16,231 nucleotides of DNA from Anaerolineales bacterium (GTDB lineage: Bacteria; Chloroflexota; Anaerolineae; 4572-78; J111). The notes below the pieces were generated by a model that had not been told where the DNA came from, did no database searches, and saw only the letters and a list, made by a program, of their open reading frames with translations. The position numbers and the translations under genes were made by a program. This document shows, piece by piece, positions 1 to 15,807 of the stretch (positions within the stretch are counted from its first letter, which is position 1; every line of letters begins with the position of its first letter). The stretch lies in contig JAAUSP010000113.1 in assembly GCA_012032575.1 (NCBI GenBank), forward strand, positions 1 to 16,231, given 5' to 3'.

Positions 1-367
1 GTCGAGAAGATTCAGCTAACTGCTCGACGGTCACATCGTCCAGGAAGTCATTTTCGGTGCTGACAGCCACGACGAGCGCATCGGTGCCGACGCGGAACTC
101 GATGGGAGTGCGGCCAATGGCTTCGCAGGAGGCGATTTCTTCCTCTTTGATGGCGCGGGAGGCATTGGAGATGTCGGTTTCGCCGGCCACGCAGAAGCGC
201 TCGAAGCCAGCGCCAGTGCCGATGCTGTCAATGGTGATGTTGCCGGCATAGCCTTCATCCTGGAACCGTTCAGCCATCCGTTCAGTCAACGGGAAGACGG
301 TCGAGCTGCCCGCCGTGATGATGTCGCCCGTTACATCCAACGCATTCACTTCCGGCAACTTTACCCG
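1..367. repeat. Second copy of the 873-nt tandem PstS repeat (partial)
   Basis: Positions 1-367 repeat 874-1240 at a constant offset of 873 nt with only scattered substitutions, most of them silent or conservative. The copy is in frame with the first and is truncated by the window edge. Confidence 0.85.
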
Positions 368-1318
368 GCTCATGTTAACAGTGCCGTCTAACCAGGCTTG
401 TTTAGCCAGGTTGATGGAAGAGTCGGACGCGGGGAAGTAGCCGACATCGAGGATTTCTTCGTTGACGTAGGTCAGATAGAAGTTGATGAAGTCGGCCACC
501 TGGGGCTTGCTGGACATAATGTTGGCATCGGAATAGATGAACAACGGGCGAGCCAGGGGATAATCGCCGCTTTCGGCGGTTTCAGCGGTCGGGGCGACCC
601 CGCCGATGGAGAGGGCTTTGAGCGCACCCTGATTGGCCTGATAGTAAGCAAAACCAAAGTAGCCGATGGCATAGGGGCTGCCTTCGACACCCTGCACCAG
701 GACGTTGTCATCCTCGGACAGTTGCAGGTTTTCGGCGCTCAACAGGGGGGCTTCATCTTCGTCAAAGATTTCTTCGACGAAGTAATCGAAGGTGCCGCTG
801 TCGGTGCCGGGGCTGAAGCGCAGGATCGGCTCAGCCGGCCAGTCGGCCCGAACATCGGCCCAGGTGGCGGCGGTGGAGTAGGCCATCGCCAGTTCTTCCG
901 CGGTGATGTCGGTCAGAAAGTCGTTTTCGCTGCTGACCACCACGGCCAGCGCATCGGTGCCGACGCGGAACTCGACCGGGGTGCGGCCAATGGCTTCGCA
1001 GGAGGCGATTTCTTCCTCTTTGATGGCGCGGGAGGCATTGGAGATGTCGGTTTCGCCGGCCACGCAGAAGCGCTCGAAGCCAGCGCCGGTGCCGACGCTG
1101 TCAATGGTGATGTTGCCGGCATAGCCTTCGTCCTGGAACCGTTCAGCCATCCGCTCGGTCATGGGGAAGACGGTCGAGCTGCCCGCCGTGATGATGTCGC
1201 CCGTTACATCCAACGGGTTCACTTCCGGTAAAACGATACCCTGGCCCAGGGCCGCGCCGGGAAGCATCATTAAAACTACAAATATTAAAACCAACAAACC
1301 GAACAATTTTTTGTTCAT
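1..1318 (-). CDS. pstS: Tandem double-domain PstS-type phosphate-binding protein, 3' end cut by window
   Basis: Likely periplasmic or surface phosphate-binding component of the Pst ABC importer. The frame is open for 439 codons from ATG at 1318 to the window edge. Residues 1-26 form an export signal (MNKK, hydrophobic stretch, then small residues around AALG) with no lipobox. A full PstS unit follows at about residues 31-320. It contains the AGSSTVFP phosphate-loop motif at 45-52, GTGAGFERFC near 77-85 and a DISNASRA segment near 91-98. At residue 322 the sequence restarts with PEVN and repeats the same motifs at an exact offset of 291 residues (873 nt). There is no stop or signal peptide between units. 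DNA identity between copies is very high, with an identical stretch of roughly 100 nt around 111-216 versus 984-1089. GAGG precedes the ATG at usual spacing. PstS proteins normally have one such domain, so the tandem form is unusual. Function in phosphate binding is inferred from motifs; other PBP-like ligands are possible. Confidence 0.85.
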   Translation of the reverse strand, partial: MNKKLFGLLVLIFVVLMMLPGAALGQGIVLPEVNPLDVTGDIITAGSSTVFPMTERMAERFQDEGYAGNITIDSVGTGAGFERFCVAGETDISNASRAIKEEEIASCEAIGRTPVEFRVGTDALAVVVSSENDFLTDITAEELAMAYSTAATWADVRADWPAEPILRFSPGTDSGTFDYFVEEIFDEDEAPLLSAENLQLSEDDNVLVQGVEGSPYAIGYFGFAYYQANQGALKALSIGGVAPTAETAESGDYPLARPLFIYSDANIMSSKPQVADFINFYLTYVNEEILDVGYFPASDSSINLAKQAWLDGTVNMSRVKLPEVNALDVTGDIITAGSSTVFPLTERMAERFQDEGYAGNITIDSIGTGAGFERFCVAGETDISNASRAIKEEEIASCEAIGRTPIEFRVGTDALVVAVSTENDFLDDVTVEQLAESSR

Positions 1319-1548: not shown

Positions 1549-1609
1549 CTTTAACTGCAATTTAAGTGTCTGTTAAATACTCGTTAAGATTCTGTTAATA
1601 TTTTGTTAA
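1549..1609 (-). promoter_or_regulatory. Pho-box-like operator: six TTAA-cored hexamers at exact 11-bp spacing
   Basis: TTAA cores start at 1551, 1562, 1573, 1584, 1595 and 1606, always 11 bp apart. Read in the pstS direction the hexamers are TTAACA, TTAACA, TTAACG, TTAACA, TTAAAT and TTAAAG with 5-bp spacers. The proximal copies overlap the -35 position relative to the TATAAT at 1539-1534. Known PhoP boxes in Bacillus are TTAACA-like direct repeats with about 11-bp period. Together with the downstream phosphate-binding gene, a PhoP-type response regulator is the natural candidate. Confidence 0.7.
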
Positions 1610-1731
1610 GTAAACTGTTGGCATCGGTTTCCCTCCGCTGTTTATGAGGGGGTTACGGGTGGGTTAGACTATTTCCAGATTTTGGAATTGTCTACTGATA
1701 AGGGGGGCTGATGACTATTACTATCCCGCAC

Positions 1732-4772: not shown

Positions 4773-5243
4773 CTACTTTACAATGAGTTTGCCCTGCATG
4801 CTGGGGTAGTGACCAGCCACGGTGCAGATAATTTTATATTCTCCGGGCAACGGCGCGGTAAGATCATAGCTGCCGGTTTTGCCAGCAGCGGTAAGGCCGG
4901 TTTGGGCCAGGATAATGTCCTTGTTATCTGCCTCGATAAAGGGTTCTGGCACTTCTGCGCCCTGTTTAACAATGGCCCAGTTATGTTCCAGCGCTCCATT
5001 ATTTTTGACATTGACTTTAATTTTAGCTCCGGCAGGAACTTCCCAGACGGGAGGCTTGGTAGCGTTATCGGGGGTTTTGCCGTAATAAATGTCGCCCTGT
5101 TCGATGTCAAGGGTGACGGCTTGGGCTTTAGGGGCTTCCGCCGGCGCTTTTTCTTCAATTTTTTGAGCGCCGCCCCCGCCGCCACATGCTGCCAGTAAAA
5201 TCGTGGCAATGATCGTTACAACAGTGATTACATAAAGTTTCAT
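4773..5243 (-). CDS. Auracyanin-type blue copper lipoprotein
   Basis: Type 1 copper electron carrier, expected to shuttle electrons from alternative complex III to the reaction-centre cytochrome in filamentous phototrophs. The 156-residue protein has an N-terminal hydrophobic signal ending in the lipobox LLAAC, with Cys20 as the lipid-anchored residue. A Gly-rich and Ala/Glu/Pro/Lys-rich tether of about 25 residues follows, then the cupredoxin domain. Candidate copper ligands are His87 (EHNWAIV), Cys140, His145 and Met149 (CTVAGHYPSM). GGAGGG lies upstream of the ATG at good spacing. It has its own near-consensus promoter (5283-5311). Auracyanin is a hallmark of Chloroflexota phototrophs. Plastocyanin-like proteins of non-phototrophs share the fold, but the context supports auracyanin. 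Confidence 0.88.
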   Translation of the reverse strand: MKLYVITVVTIIATILLAACGGGGGAQKIEEKAPAEAPKAQAVTLDIEQGDIYYGKTPDNATKPPVWEVPAGAKIKVNVKNNGALEHNWAIVKQGAEVPEPFIEADNKDIILAQTGLTAAGKTGSYDLTAPLPGEYKIICTVAGHYPSMQGKLIVK

Positions 5244-5282: not shown

Positions 5283-5311
5283 ATTAAAGCAAAAGTCTAA
5301 ATGAATGTCAA
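5283..5311 (-). promoter_or_regulatory. Sigma70-type promoter of the auracyanin gene
   Basis: On the minus strand TTGACA (5311-5306) is separated by exactly 17 bp from TTTAAT (5288-5283). Transcription would start near 5276, about 33 nt before the ATG at 5243. The -35 lies inside the third copy of an 11-bp direct repeat. Confidence 0.65.
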
Positions 5312-5334
5312 ATTATTGTTGAATTTATGTTGAA
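5306..5334 (-). promoter_or_regulatory. Three 11-bp direct repeats overlapping the auracyanin -35 (CarH-type operator candidate)
   Basis: Read on the minus strand, TTCAACA (5334-5328), TTCAACA (5323-5317) and TTTGACA (5312-5306) are spaced exactly 11 bp apart with 4-nt spacers. Each contains T-n-n-ACA. From memory, the characterised Thermus CarH operator is a set of three 11-bp direct repeats with a T-nn-ACA core overlapping -35. A CarH-like regulator is encoded at 8060-9411, so it is the leading candidate. The link is inference. Confidence 0.5.
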
Positions 5335-5362
5335 GATTAGGGCTGTTTTTTGCCTTTTTTGA

Positions 5363-6910: not shown

Positions 6911-6938
6911 ATTATAACTGACTTTCATATATTGACAA
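6911..6938 (-). promoter_or_regulatory. pucC promoter
   Basis: TTGTCA (6938-6933) and a perfect TATAAT (6916-6911) on the minus strand are separated by 16 bp, predicting a start near 6904 and a leader of about 150 nt. Confidence 0.55.
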
Positions 6939-6959
6939 AACTTCAATTAAAGCTAACAT
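6932..6959 (+). promoter_or_regulatory. crtB promoter candidate
   Basis: A perfect TTGACA (6932-6937) is followed after 16 bp by TAACAT (6954-6959). The -35 box coincides base for base with that of the opposite pucC promoter, so one bound protein could block both. Confidence 0.4.
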
Positions 6960-7112
6960 ACAATGAATTTTTTGCTTTGTACATTGCCACAAAGCGCCTC
7001 CATTTCTAAACTTAAGTACCCAAATACTAACAAAATATTCAATGACTTTATATTCGAGACCTTATTTTAGTAGCGCTTGCTAAAACCAAACAATGGGGGA
7101 GAAGGAATTCGT

Positions 7113-8078
7113 ATGGCATTACACGTTGCTGCGTGGGAGCAGCGCCTTATCGAACGATCGCAAGTATCCCCGGAGAGAGAAAAGCCCCATTGGGTATTAC
7201 CTATCAACGGCAAGCAGCTCAAACAGGCGTACACTCTGTGTGATACAATTACAGCCGAACATAGTCGCACGTTTTACCTGGCCTCATCGTTGCTGCCCTC
7301 AAGCCAAAAGCGCAGTATTCGAGCACTCTATGCTTTTTGCCGTCGCAGTGATGATTTGGTTGATCGCTTTAGCGGCGACCGGCGGACCGAATTTGAGCAG
7401 TGGCAAGCCCGTATTCTGGAGAACCATCCAGAGGATGATGACCCGGTTGTTTTAGCCTGGGCTGATACGCGGGCCAGGCATCATATCCCTACCACTTATG
7501 TAAAACAATTTATTGAAGGCGTGGCCGCTGATTTGACTATCACTCGTTACGCCACCTTTGCCGACCTGGCCGAATATTGTTATGGCGTGGCCGCCACAGT
7601 TGGATTAATGTCCATGCATATTGTTGGTTTTTCCACCCAGGAAGCTATTCGCTATGCGGTGAAGTTAGGGGTAGCGCTCCAGATGACCAATATTCTGCGG
7701 GATGTGGGAGAGGATTGGGCCAATGGCCGGTTATATCTGCCCCAGGATGAGTTGCAAGCCTTTGACCTGAGCGAAGAAGATATTGCGGCCCAGCGGGTGG
7801 ACGAGCGCTGGCAAGCCTTTATGCATTATCAAATCCAGCGCACCCGGCAGCTTTACGCCGAGTCCCGGCCCGGAGTAGCGCTTTTACACCGCAATGGTCG
7901 GCTGGCAATTGCCGCCGCGGCCGAACTCTACCGGGCAATTCTCGACGATATTGAACTGCATCACCACGATGTATTTAATCATCGAGCCTATGTGAGCGGG
8001 CGAAGCAAGCTTTGTAAATTACCGGGCATCATCTGGCGAGTTATCATCAACCGGCATCATCAAGCTTGCGCCAACTGA
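7113..8078 (+). CDS. crtB: Phytoene synthase
   Basis: Condenses two geranylgeranyl diphosphates to phytoene, the first step of carotenoid synthesis. The preferred start is ATG at 7113 (321 residues) because GAAGGA lies 8 nt upstream; a TTG at 7077 is in frame but has no RBS. The two Asp-rich diphosphate-Mg motifs of trans-isoprenyl synthases are present: RRSDDLVD (Asp80, 81, 84) and RDVGEDWANGRLYLP (Asp197, Asp201). The HSRTFYLAS segment typical of squalene/phytoene synthases is at about residues 50-58. The last 19 nt overlap, in antisense, the 3' end of the CarH-like gene. The product is the substrate of the CrtI encoded 4 kb away, so the pathway is split across the cluster. Squalene synthase is less likely given the desaturase and photosynthesis context. 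Confidence 0.93.
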   Translation: MALHVAAWEQRLIERSQVSPEREKPHWVLPINGKQLKQAYTLCDTITAEHSRTFYLASSLLPSSQKRSIRALYAFCRRSDDLVDRFSGDRRTEFEQWQARILENHPEDDDPVVLAWADTRARHHIPTTYVKQFIEGVAADLTITRYATFADLAEYCYGVAATVGLMSMHIVGFSTQEAIRYAVKLGVALQMTNILRDVGEDWANGRLYLPQDELQAFDLSEEDIAAQRVDERWQAFMHYQIQRTRQLYAESRPGVALLHRNGRLAIAAAAELYRAILDDIELHHHDVFNHRAYVSGRSKLCKLPGIIWRVIINRHHQACAN

Positions 8079-9411
8079 AGGTCTGACCTGACTCGATCCA
8101 GCCACTCGATAATGGGTGTGCCAACCTCATTCAGGTTTTTCTCGACCGCTCTAAAATAAGCATCGAAATAGCTGGTCTGCCAATTCTGGGATATGCCATA
8201 GTTGGAGATAAGCTTCTGCGACAGCTTCATCTCTGGATTAATAAAATTCATATCCCCTAATTGCAAAGCGGCCAAAATATCGCGGGCGAGCCGGGAGTTG
8301 GTCTTGTCCAGAAATTCAAAATACGATTTTTTGCTCTCCAGCATTTGCATCGTATCTAACTCGATCAAATTACGTTTGACCCGATAATTGAGCGAAGCTT
8401 GCTCGTAAACATCGGAAACAGGTTCGATGTGGGATACAGACGGCTTAAAGGTCATGATCTGACCGATAGCGGTTACGGCATCTTCTATACTTTCACCCAG
8501 AAAATGGCTGTAAACCCGTTGGCGCAGGCCGGGAGTAAGGTTGAAAATCGAACCGCCATAGGCGGAATTGACACGCCTCTTGTGCAAAAGTTCAGCCGTT
8601 TGGGCCAGGGTTGCGGCTGTTTGCAGTCGTTGGGCCGAGAGAATAACTAATTCCGGTTTAACCGCTTCAAGGGTGGACTCGAGTTGACTGAGCGGTACAT
8701 TGGCCCCCAGATAAACCACATCCCAGCCGCGATACCGCAGCAGCAACGACAGCAACAGCATAACAATGGTGTGTTCTTCATAGGGGGGACAGAAAACAAG
8801 AATACGACCGATCCGTGTGGGTGGGGGAGAGCCGCCAGCAAAGCATTCAAGCGTTCCAGAACAAGCGCTGAAACAAAATGTTCCTGCTGCACGGTTGCCG
8901 AATTTTTAAACCAGAGACTTCCCACCTGGGTTAAGCCCTTTTGTAATATCTCGGTGCAAACCATGTGAATGGGATAAATGGCAAATGCCTGGGTCAAAAC
9001 GCTTTCAGCGCTGGCTTTGTCAAACCTTAAACACTGCTCAACCCATTTCCGGCGCAGGTCGGTGAGGGCATCCTCTGCGCCGGGGCTGACCGGAACTTTG
9101 GCTGTCTGATAGGCTGCCCCCTTTAACGAGTCGCCGGCTTTCCCTTCCAGATGATGCCACAGTTCAACCGCGCGGCTGATGGTCATGCCTTCATCCTGGC
9201 GGGCCATTAGCCATTTAACAATTTCAATGTCTTGCTGGGTGTAAGTGCGGTGGTTGCCCTGCGTGCGCTGAGGGCGGGGCAGACCATATCTTTGCTCCCA
9301 AATGCGCAGGGTGTGAGGTTTTATGCCCGTTTCCAAAACGACGGCTTTGAGATTGAAAGTGGGCGAGGTTTCAGAAGTGTTCATCAAAACTCTTTTTTCG
9401 TTCTTAACCAT
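8060..9411 (-). CDS. CarH-like MerR-family B12-binding photoreceptor regulator, frame broken once
   Basis: Likely light- and adenosylcobalamin-dependent transcription factor. The N-terminal MerR winged helix (FNLKAVVLETGIKPHTLRIW, about residues 19-38, then RYGLPRPQRT) is followed by a helical domain with W167-x9-E177-H178, the CarH W-x9-EH signature over the corrin. A B12-binding Rossmann domain follows (EEH with candidate cobalt ligand His214, then RGWDVVYLGANVP). Beyond the usual CarH end there are about 125 further residues, rich in helix-forming residues, that I do not recognise. The frame changes at the G5 run 8823-8827 (C5 in the coding strand). Adding one base restores ALPPPTRIGRILVFCPPYEEH and gives about 450 residues. 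Met at 9384 is an alternative start; neither has a strong RBS. The gene is divergent from puf and overlaps crtB by 19 nt tail to tail. Regulation of puf, crt or auracyanin is inferred from position and operator-like repeats. Confidence 0.82.
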
Positions 9412-9459
9412 AAACTACTTGATTTTTGTCCCGGGAGGGGTTTGTTAAAAATAAAACAA

Positions 9460-9502
9460 ATGACAAATGTCACTAGGAATTAGTGACTATGACAAATTGA
9501 CA
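9460..9502. promoter_or_regulatory. Operator-like palindrome and repeat cluster at the puf / CarH-like gene border
   Basis: TGACAAATGTCA (9461-9472) has inverted TGACA/TGTCA ends. GTCACTA (9469-9475) and TAGTGAC (9481-9487) form a perfect inverted repeat around 5 nt. ATGACAAAT occurs twice 29 bp apart (9460-9468, 9489-9497), and the second copy runs into the puf -35 TTGACA. This is a dense binding-site pattern between divergent genes, suited to autoregulation plus puf control. Confidence 0.5.
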
Positions 9503-9526
9503 TTTACTAGAGAAAGGTGTTAAAAT
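9497..9526 (+). promoter_or_regulatory. puf operon promoter candidate
   Basis: A perfect TTGACA (9497-9502) is followed after 18 bp by TAAAAT (9521-9526). It is oriented toward pufB, and the -35 overlaps the repeat cluster. Predicted start is near 9533, about 300 nt before pufB. Confidence 0.55.
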
Positions 9527-9557
9527 CTTCACTGTAGGTAAGGTTTTTTATAGGTAT

Positions 9558-9624
9558 TGTTTAAGTTATTGTAGCACGAGAATCGCCCGTTCTAAATATC
9601 TGTTTAAGTTTTTGCTAAATATCT
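9558..9624. repeat. Direct repeats in the puf leader
   Basis: TGTTTAAGTTATTG (9558-9571) recurs with one change at 9601-9614. CTAAATATCT occurs exactly at 9592-9601 and 9615-9624. The repeats lie in the predicted 5' leader, downstream of the promoter. Function unknown. Confidence 0.45.
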
Positions 9625-9835
9625 AAGCTTTTGTTTGATAGAGGTTTACATCGTCGTAAAGCAGTTTAGTAATAAACTGATGGTCAAGAAGAAAAGCTGA
9701 TTTCCCCTTTTTCTCCTCTCCTCATTCCTTGATCGAATAGTCTAAAATCAGACTCTTTGCCTCCAGCGGTTGCTGTTTAACCCCGATGAAAACCTTTGAT
9801 TTATATTATTATAATCAAAACAAGGAGGTTTCACA

Positions 9836-10015
9836 ATGGCTAGAGAAAATGATGTTTACAACAATGATCAGGTTCCTGCAAAGTGGAAGAGTTTATTCTC
9901 GAACGATGAATGGTATGTCCACGACATTGTTGTAAAATCCACTTATGGCTTTGGGGCGATCGCGATTGTTGCCCATATTCTGTGTATGATGTGGAAACCC
10001 TGGCTCGGCAACTAA
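9836..10015 (+). CDS. pufB: Light-harvesting complex beta polypeptide
   Basis: A 59-residue single-span antenna polypeptide that binds bacteriochlorophyll a around the reaction centre. AAGGAGG lies 6 nt before the ATG. The sequence has the beta-type pattern: a polar N-terminus, WKSLF, then [17 protein letters not shown] and a transmembrane helix. His47 (AIVAH) is the candidate ligand of the strongly coupled bacteriochlorophyll pair, and His29 near the membrane surface is the candidate for a monomeric (B800-type) pigment. The C-terminal WKPW segment (Trp53, Trp56) follows the helix. The HDIVVKS-YGFG core matches what I recall of the Roseiflexus beta polypeptide. First gene of the operon, 72 nt ahead of pufA. 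Confidence 0.93.
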
Positions 10016-10087: not shown

Positions 10088-10234
10088 ATGCCACTAGATA
10101 ATAATTCACGACCGGAACGATCTTTTGAGTTCCGCACCAATGTCTTTTTGTACATCCTGTTGGGCCTCGTGGTTGCGCTGTTGATTCACTTCATTCTGCT
10201 CAGCACGCCCACCTATAACTGGCTCGCTGGTTGA
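10088..10234 (+). CDS. pufA: Light-harvesting complex alpha polypeptide
   Basis: A 48-residue partner of PufB. A short polar N-terminus with FEFRTNVF leads into one transmembrane helix. His34 (ALLIH) is the axial ligand of the antenna bacteriochlorophyll, and the C-terminal YNWL carries a conserved aromatic residue. GAGAGG precedes the ATG at 10088. The FEFRT and LLGLV-ALLIHF segments agree with my recollection of the Roseiflexus alpha polypeptide. A hairpin starts 10 nt past the stop, followed by a 446-nt gap to pufLM, an arrangement that in purple bacteria favours excess antenna mRNA. Confidence 0.93.
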
Positions 10235-10284: not shown

Positions 10285-10624
10285 ATCTCGTCACCGCATC
10301 CTGTAAGGGTAAGTCTTCACCCTTCTTAGTCATACTACAACTTAATAGGTAATTTAAGGCCGTTAGGTTGTTCGTTTATCTTTGGCACTGATGAAGGAAT
10401 AACCTGATGGCCTTCTTCTAAAATTTTTTACCGAATTTGGTAAATGCTTATCTCCACACATTCAAACTGTTTTGCGTTGGTTGCAGTTGTTTGACCGAGC
10501 TAATCACCTGTTATAACGTTGAGCCAGTGGTTATGCAAATAGCTGCTGGTCATTACGCACAATGTGTATAGTCTAGATAGCATCTCCTCTGACATAAGCG
10601 CCATCATAGTTGAAGGCGCCCGAT

Positions 10625-10679
10625 GGTTGCCTATGCCAGTGAAATCCGTGTTCGGTCTTTTAGAAAGGAGGAGGCAACC
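10625..10679 (+). promoter_or_regulatory. pufLM ribosome-binding site with complementary upstream segment
   Basis: AAAGGAGGAGG (about 10664-10674) places the start at GTG 10681. AGGCAACC (10672-10679), which runs from the end of the Shine-Dalgarno to the base before last ahead of GTG, is exactly complementary to GGTTGCCT (10625-10632) with a 39-nt loop. Folding would partly hide the site. Confidence 0.45.
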
Positions 10680-10680
10680 T

Positions 10681-12570
10681 GTGGTTACAAAAATCATAAC
10701 TCCAACAGTAATTGACCAAAAACTAAATATTGAACGCGATCGTCCGGCGGCTGAGCGTTTGAAAGAAGGCAGCAGGATTCCCTTCACTGAAGTGGAAAAG
10801 CAGTATAAAAAACCTGGTGGGACCTTAACCTACGCCTTGTTTGGCGCTGATCCTCTTGACTTTTGGTTTGGACGTTTCTATGTTGGCACCTTTGGTGTCG
10901 TCTCTGTTATCGGGATATTTTTTGGCGTCGCCTGTTATATGTATCAGGCCTGGGTTGTCGAGGGCGCTTTCAATATCCTGCGCGCCCGCATTGATCCCCC
11001 GCCCATTACCAACGGACTGCGGCTGGCCCTCCCCGGCGAGCCGGGCTTTATGTGGCAGTTAATCGTTTTGTTTGCGACAATTGCCTTTTTGGGCTGGATG
11101 TTACGCCAGGTTGATATTTCCCGCAAGCTCGATATGAGCTATGAAATCCCCATGGCTTATGGGGCTGTTGTCACCTCTTGGCTTACCCTGCAATGGCTGC
11201 GGCCGTTAGCGATGGGCGCCTGGGGTAACGGTTTTCCTCTTGGTATTACCCATCACCTCGACTGGGTTTCTAACATTGGCTACCAATACTATAACTTCTT
11301 CTTTAACCCGTTCCATGCCATTGGCATTTCGCTGTTGTTTGCTTCTACCCTGATCCTGGCGATGCATGGTTCGGCCATTCTGAGTACAGTCAACCGGCCC
11401 GAACTGAACGAGCGCAATGTGGATGGTTTCTGGCGGAATCTGCTGGGCTATAGTATTGGCGAAGTTGGCATCCATCGCCTGGGCTTTTGGATGGCGATGG
11501 CTGCGGTGCTGTTTGCTAACCTCTGTATTTTCCTCTCCGGGACGCTGGTCTTTAACTGGAACAACTTCTGGACCTTTTTTGACAACATGCCGTTCTGGGA
11601 AACTACCGCTGCCGGTACCCTCTTCCTGGGTGGGGCGGCCATAGCCAGCATCGCCTGGCGTGGGATCAAACAGCCAGACGTAGATATGGAAGAAGTTGAA
11701 TATGGTGGGATTGGGCTGGAATCAACAGCCTGGCGAAAACCCCAAAATGTTGATTTCTTCAGACGGCTTTTTGGCGTGGGTCAGGTGGGACCGGTCTACC
11801 TGGGTCTTGCCGGAGCTATCGCGGTGGTTTTTGGTGGTTTGGCCGCACTCATCATTCTGGCAGAATATCTGTATCAGGTCGGTTATAACCCCATTCTTTT
11901 CTTGCGCGAATTCTTTGTTCTGACGGTTAATCCACCCGCGATGTCGTATGGCCTGGGTATTGGCCCCTGGCATGAGGGTGGAGCCTGGTTCTTTGCCACC
12001 TTCTGTCTCCACATCGCCATTCTGGCCTGGTGGGCCAGGGTTTACTTCCGGGCTAAAGCTGCCGGCTTGAATACACAATTAGCGTGGGCCTTTGCCTGGG
12101 CGATGTTCCTGTACTTCATCATCTACCTGGTCCGGCCGCTCATCATTGGGAATTGGGCCCAAGCTCCCGGCCAGGGCTTCAAAGCCCTGCTGGATTGGAC
12201 CAACAACGTCAGCATCCAGTTTGGTAACTTCTACTATAACCCGTTCCATATGCTCTCTATCTTCTTCTTACTTGGGTCTACCTTGCTGCTGGCTATGCAC
12301 GGTGCTACCATCGTGGCTACCTCCAAGTATGGCTCTCACCGTGAAATTGAAGAGATGATGGTCGAGGGGACGGGCACCCACCGGGCGCAGTTGTTCTGGC
12401 GCTGGACGATGGGCTTCAATGTAAATTCCAAAACAATTCACGACTGGTGCTGGTGGTTCGCCGTTTTTACTGTCATTACGGGTGGTATTGGTATATTGCT
12501 CTCCGGTACGCTAATCACCGATTGGTATACCTGGGCGCATAGCATTGGCATTGTGGCTCCTATACCATGA
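10681..12570 (+). CDS. pufLM: Fused photosynthetic reaction centre L-M protein
   Basis: Encodes both core subunits of the type II (quinone) reaction centre as one 629-residue chain from GTG 10681, chosen for its AGGAGG. The L half (about 1-320) starts with KKPGGTLTYALFGADPLDFW and carries His192 and His212 (L153, L173 equivalents) and the iron ligands His229 and His265. The M half (from about 345) has FGVGQVGPVYLG, His523 (M202), iron ligands His540 and His587, and LLSGTLI near the end. At the M182 position (KALLDW) Leu503 replaces His, so the accessory bacteriochlorophyll on that side should be bacteriopheophytin, as in Chloroflexus and Roseiflexus. The M210 Tyr equivalent is Leu. The halves are joined by an acidic linker near residues 331-345 (PDVDMEEVEYGG). 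There is no start codon with RBS at the junction. A fused gene is known from Roseiflexus castenholzii. Followed 56 nt later by pufC. Confidence 0.97.
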   Translation: MVTKIITPTVIDQKLNIERDRPAAERLKEGSRIPFTEVEKQYKKPGGTLTYALFGADPLDFWFGRFYVGTFGVVSVIGIFFGVACYMYQAWVVEGAFNILRARIDPPPITNGLRLALPGEPGFMWQLIVLFATIAFLGWMLRQVDISRKLDMSYEIPMAYGAVVTSWLTLQWLRPLAMGAWGNGFPLGITHHLDWVSNIGYQYYNFFFNPFHAIGISLLFASTLILAMHGSAILSTVNRPELNERNVDGFWRNLLGYSIGEVGIHRLGFWMAMAAVLFANLCIFLSGTLVFNWNNFWTFFDNMPFWETTAAGTLFLGGAAIASIAWRGIKQPDVDMEEVEYGGIGLESTAWRKPQNVDFFRRLFGVGQVGPVYLGLAGAIAVVFGGLAALIILAEYLYQVGYNPILFLREFFVLTVNPPAMSYGLGIGPWHEGGAWFFATFCLHIAILAWWARVYFRAKAAGLNTQLAWAFAWAMFLYFIIYLVRPLIIGNWAQAPGQGFKALLDWTNNVSIQFGNFYYNPFHMLSIFFLLGSTLLLAMHGATIVATSKYGSHREIEEMMVEGTGTHRAQLFWRWTMGFNVNSKTIHDWCWWFAVFTVITGGIGILLSGTLITDWYTWAHSIGIVAPIP

Positions 12571-12626: not shown

Positions 12627-13570
12627 ATGCGTCGCGATTTAGAGAATATAATCGACCCAAAGTTTTCATACTGGCTCGTCTTTCTAATCGTAAGTGGTGT
12701 TTTAGTCGGCGGCGCTTTCTGGGTAATTGGTTTTGTGCGCAGTAAAGCGGTTTCGGCGGCGGAAGAAGAGATAATTCTCAATCCTGCTTTTGTCAATTAC
12801 TCCACCGCCGGCGATTATGTCAGCCCGGAGTCACAGGCAGCGATTCAAACATATATTGCCGAATTTCCAGAACCGCAAAATGCCCAGGTGTTGGTTAACA
12901 TGAATACCTCTGAACTCTACAATTTCATGACAACCTACATGTCGGGCGGCTTAAAACAGGATTGTACGTACTGCCACAATACTGCCAACTTTGGCGCAGA
13001 GGGCGCTGACATTGGTGATGACACCATAGCGACTCGCAAAGATACAGCCCGCCTCCATTTGCAGATGGTCGCTGATCTTAACCAGAATTGGATAACTCAA
13101 TTGGCTCAGATTGAAGGCAAAAAGCCTTCGGGCGCTCAAATCGCCTGCGCCACCTGTCACAACGGCGAAGCCATTCCGGTGGCCTGGCCGGCCGATCAGC
13201 ACGCCCTGCCCGATGACTATCGTTTACCGCTGGGCAACCTTGAGGTCTTGACCATCACCGGGAACTCGATATCTCGCTGGATACCGTTCAATACAACCAG
13301 CACACCATGACCCATTTAATGGACAGCCTGGGTGTGGGTTGTACCCATTGTCACAACTCCCGCTACTTCCCCAGTTGGGAACAGCCGGCCAAGACCTATG
13401 CCTTCACTATGTTGCAGATGTCCGAGCATATCCAGGCTACGTATAAGGAGTCGATGAACAACCAAGACCCCTCGTGCTACCTGTGCCACCGGAATCAGGT
13501 CCGCCCGCCGGGAGCGGTTCAATCGGAAGTATTCCTGCCGGAACCGTTGAGATCAAGCTACAAACCGTAA
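12627..13570 (+). CDS. pufC: Reaction-centre tetraheme cytochrome c subunit, frame broken once
   Basis: Re-reduces the photo-oxidised special pair, taking electrons from auracyanin or another carrier at the outer membrane face. The start at 12627 follows TTAGGAG. Residues 14-36 form an uncleaved N-terminal membrane anchor. Four CxxCH heme motifs are present: CTYCH (113-117), CATCH (174-178), CTHCH (about 239) and CYLCH (about 284). The first two lie in one frame and the last two in another. The first frame ends at 13310 after a non-conserved tail. Adding one G to the GGG at 13260-13262 restores TITGELDISLDTVQYNQHTM leading into heme 3, giving about 314 residues, normal for the family. Candidate axial Met residues precede each heme. 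As written the gene would give a diheme fragment. I treat the break as a probable sequencing indel. Confidence 0.9.
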
Positions 13571-14596: not shown

Positions 14597-15807
14597 TTGA
14601 AACCCATATTGGTCGTCGGCGCATCGGTGGGAGGAGCCACTGCCGCCAACACACTGGCCGAAGCCGGAGTCCCGGTGATAATGTTGGAACGGGACCTGGC
14701 CTGGGTTAAGCCGTGTGGCGGGGCTTTACCCCCCAAAGCATTCGTCGAATTTGATATTCCCCAGGCCCTTATCTCGCGCAAAGTACACAAAACGATGATC
14801 CACTCCCCCTCGGAGCGGACGACCGAGATCGAAGTGGCCGGGTTGCAGAAAGGGGCCGACGATTATGTGGCCATGGTCTGCCGGGAAGAGCTTGACCCTT
14901 ATCTACGCCAGCGAGCCGTAGCCAGGGGCGCTCAGTTGATCGAAGGGAAACTGCTGGACCTGAAGGTGGCTGCCGACGGCGTGACCGTGACCTATCGGGA
15001 GAAAGACAGTTCCGCCAAAGCAACCATGCAGGTGGAAACGGTCATTGGCGCGGATGGCGCTTACTCGACCACCGCCGAGGTGTTAGGGCTGCCCCGGCTG
15101 CCCCGTTGTATCGCCATCCAGGAACGCATCCGTCTGCCGGAAGATAAAATGAAGCGTTGGGAAGATATGGCCGACCTGTACCTGGGCCATGATGTCAGCC
15201 CCGATTTGTACGCCTGGGCCTTCCCCAAGGCCGACCATATCGCGGTCGGCTGTGGAGCCGGACCCGGCAACACCGCTCAGGCCCGCCAGTTGTTAGCCAA
15301 TCTGAAACAACGAATTGCCCCGGAATTAGCCGGCGGCGAAGTTTTTCTGGAAGAAGCCCACGCTCTGCCCATGCATCCTCGCCCTCACTTTGCTTTCGAG
15401 CGGGTGATGCTGGTGGGGGATGCGGCCGGGTTGGTGGTCAGCACCTCCGGCGAAGGCATTTACTGGGCCATGAAAAGTGGTCAGTACGCGGCCCAGACTT
15501 TGATTGAAGTTCTGCCGGATGTGTCCGCACAGGCCCTGCGGCGTTATGAAAAGCACTGGTGGCAGGAGTACGGTAAGATGTACCGCTTCTTGCGCTGGCT
15601 GCAAAATGGGGCTACGGCAACGAGCGGCAAATGGAAGTCTTTACCGATATGTGCCGGAACAAAGATGTGCAGCAGCTCACCTTTGAGTCCTATATGCACA
15701 AGAATATGACCCCGGTGCCGTGGCTGGCCCAGATGCGGATGACCGGCGACATCGTGGCGGCGCAGGTGCGGCACTACCTGTTCCCCCGGCGGAGACAGCA
15801 AGCCTGA
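14597..15807 (+). CDS. bchP: Geranylgeranyl reductase, frame broken once
   Basis: NADPH- and flavin-dependent reduction of the geranylgeranyl tail of bacteriochlorophyll a to phytyl. The start is TTG at 14597, 29 nt after the bchG stop, with GGAAGGGGG upstream; earlier in-frame codons would read back through bchG. The N-terminal FAD motif VVGASVGGATAA (6-17) is followed by VKPCGGALPP (38-47), typical of BchP/ChlP, and by the second FAD motif LVGDAAG (about 272). The frame is lost at the A4 run 15603-15606 and would end at 15709 in a nonsense tail. One added A restores KWGYGNERQMEVFTDM through to the TGA at 15805-15807, giving about 403 residues, a normal BchP length. The stop overlaps the puhE start (TGATG). 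Confidence 0.92.

Follow-up and report, generated by a model that had tools for sequence, protein, structure and literature searches.

The window analyzed here, a stretch of 16,231 nucleotides from an Anaerolineales bacterium (contig JAAUSP010000113.1), carries a photosynthesis cluster comprising a crtI-like gene, hemA, genes for a cupredoxin and a PUCC-family transporter, crtB, a regulator gene, pufB, pufA, a fused pufLM gene, pufC, bchG, and bchP (Table 1); the names bchG, bchP, and crtI were assigned from Pfam classes and alignment. The regulator gene is the subject of this report. Its product combines a MerR-type helix-turn-helix (HTH) DNA-binding domain, a B12 cap, a B12-binding Rossmann domain, and a C-terminal photoglobin domain, and it probably serves as a light switch that depends on B12, puf being one of the predicted targets. 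The gene lies between crtB and puf, as a first-pass annotation of the sequence had it; it is convergent with crtB and divergent from puf.

Table 1. Positions of the features discussed in the text, in window coordinates (ORF, open reading frame; PWM, position weight matrix)
Feature	Position	Strand	Remarks
MerR-B12-photoglobin regulator gene	8060..9411	-	two frames: ORF 9411..8647 and ORF 8761..8060
MerR-type DNA-binding domain	9160..9354	-	ORF residues 20-84; PF13411, 49.5 bits, cut-off 21.6; PDB match CarH 3whp/5c8d
B12 cap, four-helix bundle	8839..9051	-	PF02607 (B12-binding_2), residues 121-191; 35.9 bits, cut-off 23
W-x9-EH motif	8878..8913	-	W167, E177, H178
Frame break	8815..8835	-	family sequence goes on in other frame; L001 and L002 open through it
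Lower-axial-ligand His (PPYEEH)	8771..8773	-	expected place, in other frame
B12-binding Rossmann domain	8525..8803	-	PF02310, 31.2 bits on cut ORF, 0.9 under cut-off 32.1
C-terminal photoglobin (phycobiliprotein-like globin fold)	8060..8428	-	122 aa
Regulator-puf intergenic region	9412..9835		424 bp, divergent
Sigma-70-like promoter towards puf	9497-9526		11/12 matches
Cupredoxin gene	4773-5243		repeats upstream at 5302..5346 (-)
Three tandem 11-bp TnnACA repeats upstream of cupredoxin gene	5302..5346	-	PWM 15.5; reached by 3.6% of null blocks
Partial operator-like site upstream of crtB	6919-6952		PWM 9.3; 5.7% of null blocks score as high
crtB, phytoene synthase	7077-8078	+	PF00494, 258.6 bits; convergent with regulator, 19-bp overlap
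pufB, antenna polypeptide	9836-10015	+	PF00556; divergent from regulator
pufA, antenna polypeptide	10088-10234	+	PF00556
Fused pufLM, reaction-center gene	10564..12570	+	PF00124, 490.6 bits, two stretches
pufC	12627..13570	+	PF02276; frame-broken near 13262
bchP	14597-15804		frame-broken near 15605; compared with L001 and L002

Domain architecture and family of the regulator

The regulator gene is spread over two frames. The first ORF (254 aa) encodes the MerR HTH domain and the B12 cap, including W167 and E177-H178, and the second (233 aa) encodes the bulk of the B12 Rossmann domain together with the C-terminal part. The first ORF departs from the family sequence after ..NALLAA (at about position 8830), and the remainder continues in another frame. 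The first-pass description of a gene at 8060 to 9411 is thus confirmed in part: the MerR domain, the B12 cap, and part of the Rossmann domain are there, but the gene is not a single open frame, and the break was not mentioned. Taken over the two frames, the domain set of CarH (MerR HTH, B12 cap, and Rossmann domain) is present, and for the Rossmann domain the family also gives profile and fold matches to CarH and photocobilins. The architecture and the main adenosylcobalamin (AdoCbl) contact residues support the earlier label of a CarH-like B12 photoreceptor. The NCBIfam CarH equivalog cut-off of 400 bits was not reached by the two cut ORFs (88.9 and 22.1 bits).

About 122 to 125 residues follow the B12 domain, in line with the earlier estimate of about 125. 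By fold and profile comparison, this added domain is the photoglobin domain of photocobilins, an already published class of B12 photoreceptors (PMC10979010), and the hallmark of that class, a C-terminal photoglobin attached to the B12 domain, is found in the window protein. The added domain, earlier described as one of unknown role, is thus of a known kind. The annotation had also held that its reading would fail if the segment belonged to a known family with another function; the family is indeed known, but its function is light sensing, so only half of that objection applies. A Foldseek search with the C-terminal part alone returned nothing under an E value of 0.001; in the same list, all of it above that value, the first two rows were a heme globin (6wk3), and phycobiliproteins made up most of the rest. 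A second comparison, by VIA-align, gave the list of phycobiliproteins.

When residues 205 to 440 of the read-through protein were used as the query (E ≤ 0.001), 446 proteins matched the second half of the regulator. Among the 120 matches listed, MerR and both B12 domains were present in 109, 10 were shorter (274 to 398 aa) and lacked MerR, and 1 lacked a PF02310 mark; the closest of those listed is an intact protein with 90% identity over the second half. Because there are 446 relatives and 109 of the 120 listed share MerR and both B12 domains, the combination goes beyond chance. Relatives are encoded by 235 stretches of GTDB genome contigs, the best 80 of which were analyzed as the family loci; by their titles, these 80 are all metagenome-assembled genomes of Chloroflexota groups, save one titled “bacterium.” In a sample of 396 genomes of the window's class, drawn from the larger group around the genome of locus L001, relatives occurred in 182 (E value of 1e-40), a count that includes shorter CarH-like proteins without the C-terminal part. 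A plasmid search with the second half of the regulator gave no match. The MerR-B12-photoglobin regulator is real and conserved, and its domain assignment is firm. 

Some genomes with unfused reaction-center genes (G464, G494, G501, G592, G599, G620, G627, and G658) also hold proteins that match the profile between positions 73-109 and 389-428, over its B12 and photoglobin part, with little or no HTH; these are apparently free-standing photocobilins.

Linkage to puf and operator sequences

In loci L001 and L002, as in the window, the regulator is divergent from puf. We surveyed Photo_RC in the 396 class genomes and in 400 phylum genomes (each set sampled from a larger group) and found it in 18 and 38, respectively, 48 of them distinct. 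Fused PufLM was present in 9 of the 48, and all 9 carry a CarH-like gene that is divergent from the reaction-center gene and 1.2 to 2.0 kb from it; we claim no significance for this linkage, because the nine fused genomes are few lineages. Among the 39 genomes with unfused genes, a relative of the regulator was near puf in 1 (G201), where it lies ~3 kb downstream of the reaction-center genes on the same strand, past pufC and a PUCC-like gene; the comparison used listed positions and, for 15 genomes, also puf flanks, some of which end with the contig.

Seven fused-PufLM genomes (L174 to L180), for which we use the working label “Roseiflexus-like,” have a two-domain CarH-like gene divergent from pufB in all seven cases. 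The encoded proteins (333 to 387 aa) have no photoglobin and have lost EH (ER, EQ, or VQ); where a second copy, linked to crtB, was examined (four genomes), it retains EH. In the tree, the puf-linked proteins of L174 to L180 form their own branch (100/100), apart from the MerR-photoglobin family that includes the window protein. The position next to puf seems to have been occupied on two occasions, each time from a different CarH-like stock. Among the seven genomes, five, which are close kin, show three to four tandem 11-bp TGCATA/TGCACA units before the puf promoter (0 to 2 of 200 shuffles). TGCGTA-like repeats in G751 pass the four-unit count only (0/200; three-unit count, 153/200), and in G543 (Roseiflexus-like) neither the three-unit nor the four-unit repeat count exceeds the shuffles.

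The window, L001, and L002 proteins, together with 20 metagenomic proteins, make up a clade of 23 rows (SH-like approximate likelihood ratio test, 100; quick tree), although they are not mutual nearest rows within it. Gene context is known for 3 of the 23 rows; all 3 are beside puf, and that of the window is also beside crtB. The HTH domain of the clade carries His33 in 23/23 rows, versus Asp in 111/114 others. An attempt to describe puf linkage as a single tree clade (G201 included) was rejected: four changes were needed, and the mean of the shuffles was 4.0.

In Thermus and Bacillus, CarH recognizes tandem 11-bp repeats of the form nnnnTnnACAn (PMC9304148). We counted pairs of TnnACA spaced by 11 within 350 bp upstream of family genes, in 79 upstream regions (that of the window and those of the family loci, 78 of the 80, whose upstream sequence was long enough). 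A pair was present in 39 of the 79 (100 shuffles: mean, 1.26; maximum, 4), other spacings from 7 to 30 occurred in 0 to 6 upstream regions each, and elsewhere in the same loci a pair was found in 10 of 2,150 blocks. A PWM built from 47 sites, with the window, L001, and L002 left out, placed sites no more than 400 bp ahead of CrtB or CrtI genes, away from the regulator, in 11 of the 31 loci that hold CrtB or CrtI; there were 18 other sites elsewhere in ~1.27 Mb. Roughly half of the promoters of the family genes themselves, and some promoters of crtB/crtI, thus carry a CarH-type operator, and the matrix sites at CrtB and CrtI tie the family to carotenogenesis, as CarH is tied. TTGACAAACATTGGACA-like tandem repeats were also seen just upstream of regulator copies in other reaction-center genomes (L153, L154, L157-L160, and L166; matrix scores, 7.2 to 12.7), which suggests a CarH-type operator there as well.

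Window scores were compared with a null set of 140 AT-rich blocks, which may contain real sites. The last of the three repeats upstream of the cupredoxin gene holds a −35-like TTGACA, at which the promoter scan lists no promoter; the region upstream of the L001 cupredoxin orthologue has a matrix site scoring 15.0 on the opposite strand. At puf, an 11-bp tandem operator was tried and rejected, since period-11 repeats were no better than shuffles (97, 91, and 170 of 200 for the window, L001, and L002). A perfect 7-bp inverted repeat (9469-9487, loop of 5) stands just upstream of the puf −35 box; the scan calls it terminator-like on the minus strand, and it could be a MerR-type palindrome. The top matrix score of the window (20.0, 1589-1622) was rejected as a CarH site. 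It falls on four TTAACA-like units with 11-bp spacing (1567-1622, minus strand) upstream of a pstS-like gene, and these are probably a Pho box; the matrix can confuse CarH-like operators with Pho boxes. The PstS-like ORF itself (2-1318, minus strand) contains a phosphate-binding protein sequence twice in tandem, the second copy being cut by the window edge.

These data bear on an explanation in which the regulator controls only carotenoid genes and its own gene, the puf neighborhood having been inherited from a shared cluster without regulatory meaning. CrtB lies within the examined flanks of 28 of the 80 family loci, operators stand at crt promoters, and in the window crtB adjoins the regulator and puf has no tandem operator. 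Against this, a CarH-like gene stands divergent from puf in every one of the nine fused-PufLM genomes sampled, although the regulators belong to two separate branches, and CrtB was not found in the examined flanks of L001 and L002. We consider control of carotenoid genes and the regulator's own gene alone a possible but rather unlikely explanation.

Cobalamin contacts, the photoglobin ligand, and the frame break

The earlier observation that W-x9-EH and the lower-ligand His are kept was confirmed: W167 and E177-H178 stand nine apart, and the His of PPYEEH is at the expected place. The Gly and Trp of G-x-x-W, the Glu of EH, and the lower-ligand His are each kept in 136/136 relatives, and the His of EH is kept in 135/136; in 18 further copies from reaction-center genomes, the lower His was found in 17 and the Pro of GxxxP in 6. 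The signature of light-responsive B12 domains has four elements, namely GxxW, EH, GxxH, and GxxxP (PMC11796333), of which the window protein keeps GxxW, EH, and GxxxP. Cobalamin adenosyltransferase was present in 34 of 36 genomes tested. An AdoCbl-based light mechanism is likely, and light may release the regulator from DNA. The regulator could instead depend on B12 without being released by light, sensing redox state or cobalamin form as AerR/PpaA do, or it could be B12 free like CarA. In the seven Roseiflexus-like genomes, the CarH-like genes linked to puf lack EH, and AerR/PpaA use hydroxocobalamin (PMC10890935), but the window protein keeps the AdoCbl contact residues W, E, and H and the lower His, and we regard this alternative as unlikely.

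In the photocobilin SasPcob, Asp270 and Trp296 contact biliverdin, Trp296 at the D ring; AbPcob has His in place of that Asp and binds biliverdin weakly (PMC10979010). The place of Asp270 in the window protein is Asn or Arg, according to register, with Asp in neither; the register is uncertain, as manual, HMMER, MAFFT, and hhalign alignments disagree, and in the MAFFT register Asp occurs in 8/155 rows. The place of Trp296 is Leu in the window and in 19/23 rows of its clade, versus Trp in 112/114 rows outside it. Another ligand is possible, as an Asn in this helix is kept in 22/23 clade rows and 93/114 others. A search for heme oxygenase (PF01126), in which other heme-degrading enzymes were not sought, was negative for all of 50 and all of 18 genomes (66 distinct), each with family members or shorter relatives and the window's own genome being outside the set; the same search was positive in 3 of 24 other Chloroflexota genomes. 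Because the Asp and Trp contacts are absent from the window protein and PF01126 is absent from the 66 genomes, biliverdin is an unlikely ligand. In the puf-linked clade, the photoglobin has probably lost the use of biliverdin and would now either function with no chromophore or bind a different ligand.

A two-chromophore photocobilin, in which biliverdin in the photoglobin would pass red light energy to AdoCbl and so place puf under red and green control, would fit the fold and domain order, which are those of SasPcob and AbPcob, and the optical coupling of biliverdin and AdoCbl shown in those two proteins (PMC10979010). However, the window family does not conserve the Asp270 of SasPcob, most rows of the window's clade have Leu at the place of Trp296, and heme oxygenase was not found in the 66 genomes; we find this explanation distinctly improbable.

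Compared with L001 and L002, where both are open, the pufC and bchP genes show one frame break apiece, which makes three breaks of one sort (regulator, pufC, and bchP) within 16 kb. Since pufC and bchP are broken likewise yet open in L001 and L002, base-calling or assembly indels are likely, rather than decay. A programmed frameshift in the regulator gene was dropped as an explanation, because the break is near 8830 and not at the G6 run at 8783, relatives are intact, and two other genes are broken likewise. That the break near 8830 marks a decaying pseudogene in this organism is very unlikely, as the other frame carries on at 90% identity to an intact relative and indel error better fits the same sort of break in pufC and bchP.

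Proposed switch and comparison with known systems

We favor, with moderate confidence, the explanation that the protein is a MerR-B12-photoglobin transcription regulator acting as a B12/light switch. A CarH-type DNA-binding and AdoCbl-sensing core would carry a photocobilin-type globin packed on the B12 domain. In the dark, the AdoCbl form would oligomerize and sit on promoters (the divergent region between the regulator and puf, that of cupredoxin, and perhaps that of crtB); light would break the Co-C bond and free the regulator from them, and the genes for antenna, reaction center, electron carrier, and carotenoids would thereby be set by light and B12. The photoglobin would cover the corrin edge, as in photocobilins, and tune the switch, and the puf-linked copy would have its own DNA specificity rather than the classic CarH one. 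Control of puf is plausible. The first-pass proposal that reaction-center genes are controlled is supported by the conserved divergent linkage to puf but not by a CarH-type tandem operator.

Several observations weigh against this explanation. The full four-element signature (PMC11796333) is not present, as the window protein has Tyr where GxxH calls for Gly (a Gly found in only 20/136 relatives), and the position three residues past the ligand His is Val, where Gly or Pro is expected. The residue after W is Phe, whereas in Thermus CarH it is His132, which has a known light-state role; the position is Tyr or Phe in 125/136 relatives and Gln and Tyr in photocobilins, and a different light state is therefore expected. 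The gene is frame-broken in the present contig. Because EH is lost in L174 to L180, control of puf in those genomes need not be based on AdoCbl and light. Neither in the window nor in L001 or L002 does a tandem TnnACA pair stand in the regulator-puf region; the matrix score of this region is 11.1 in the window (reached by 4.3% of null blocks) and just 6.4 in L001 (reached by 12.9%), and upstream of the cupredoxin homologues of G145, G276, and G319 there is no operator (best scores, −2.6 to 6.4). Since 3.6 to 5.7% of null blocks reach the cupredoxin, puf, and crtB scores of the window, single matrix sites are weak evidence. The puf-linked clade may have a changed DNA specificity, which would account for the lack of a CarH operator there.

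More tentatively, we suggest that in fused-PufLM Chloroflexota puf could be under a resident divergent MerR-B12 regulator, in a post filled twice: in Roseiflexus-like genomes by a two-domain, EH-less CarH relative, and in the lineage of the window by a MerR-B12-photoglobin protein. This second protein would be a transcription factor coupling AdoCbl photochemistry to a globin whose ligand has changed from biliverdin, possibly to heme or a tetrapyrrole of the bacteriochlorophyll pathway, and would thereby set reaction-center synthesis.

A literature search of open-license papers turned up no described light regulator of reaction-center genes in Chloroflexota. The regulator gene is a concrete candidate for a light switch, with a predicted ligand, predicted targets (puf, cupredoxin, and crtB), and a family-wide operator. 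It would join CarH repressors, photocobilins, and anoxygenic photosynthesis and would show what a photoglobin does once its biliverdin contacts are lost.

As a variant of CarH and photocobilins, the MerR-B12-photoglobin regulator is new. It shares with CarH/LitR (Thermus thermophilus, 5c8d and 3whp; Myxococcus; Bacillus megaterium) the MerR HTH, the B12 cap with W-x9-EH, the Rossmann domain with an E-x-H lower ligand, linkage to crt genes, and family operators of 11-bp TnnACA tandem repeats as described for CarH (PMC9304148). It differs in its ~122 extra C-terminal residues, myxobacterial CarH relatives having 286 to 330 residues (same source), in Phe at the place of His132, and in the lack of a tandem operator at the promoter of the puf-linked copy. 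The puf-linked MerR-B12 genes of L174 to L180 share its position divergent from pufB but differ in length, in having no photoglobin, in the loss of EH, and in their separate branch. The PpaA/AerR antirepressors of purple bacteria have a B12 domain without a MerR domain of their own, whereas the window protein carries its own MerR HTH; PpaA/AerR and the AppA SCHIC antirepressors act on PpsR/CrtJ and are not known to have a MerR HTH and photoglobin. Finally, the photocobilins SasPcob and AbDPcob (8j2w, 8j2x, and 8j2y; PMC10979010) have no output domain or a diguanylate cyclase, in contrast with the MerR DNA-binding domain of the window family; their Asp270 and Trp296 contacts to biliverdin are not kept in the window protein, and PF01126 was not found in the 66 genomes tested.
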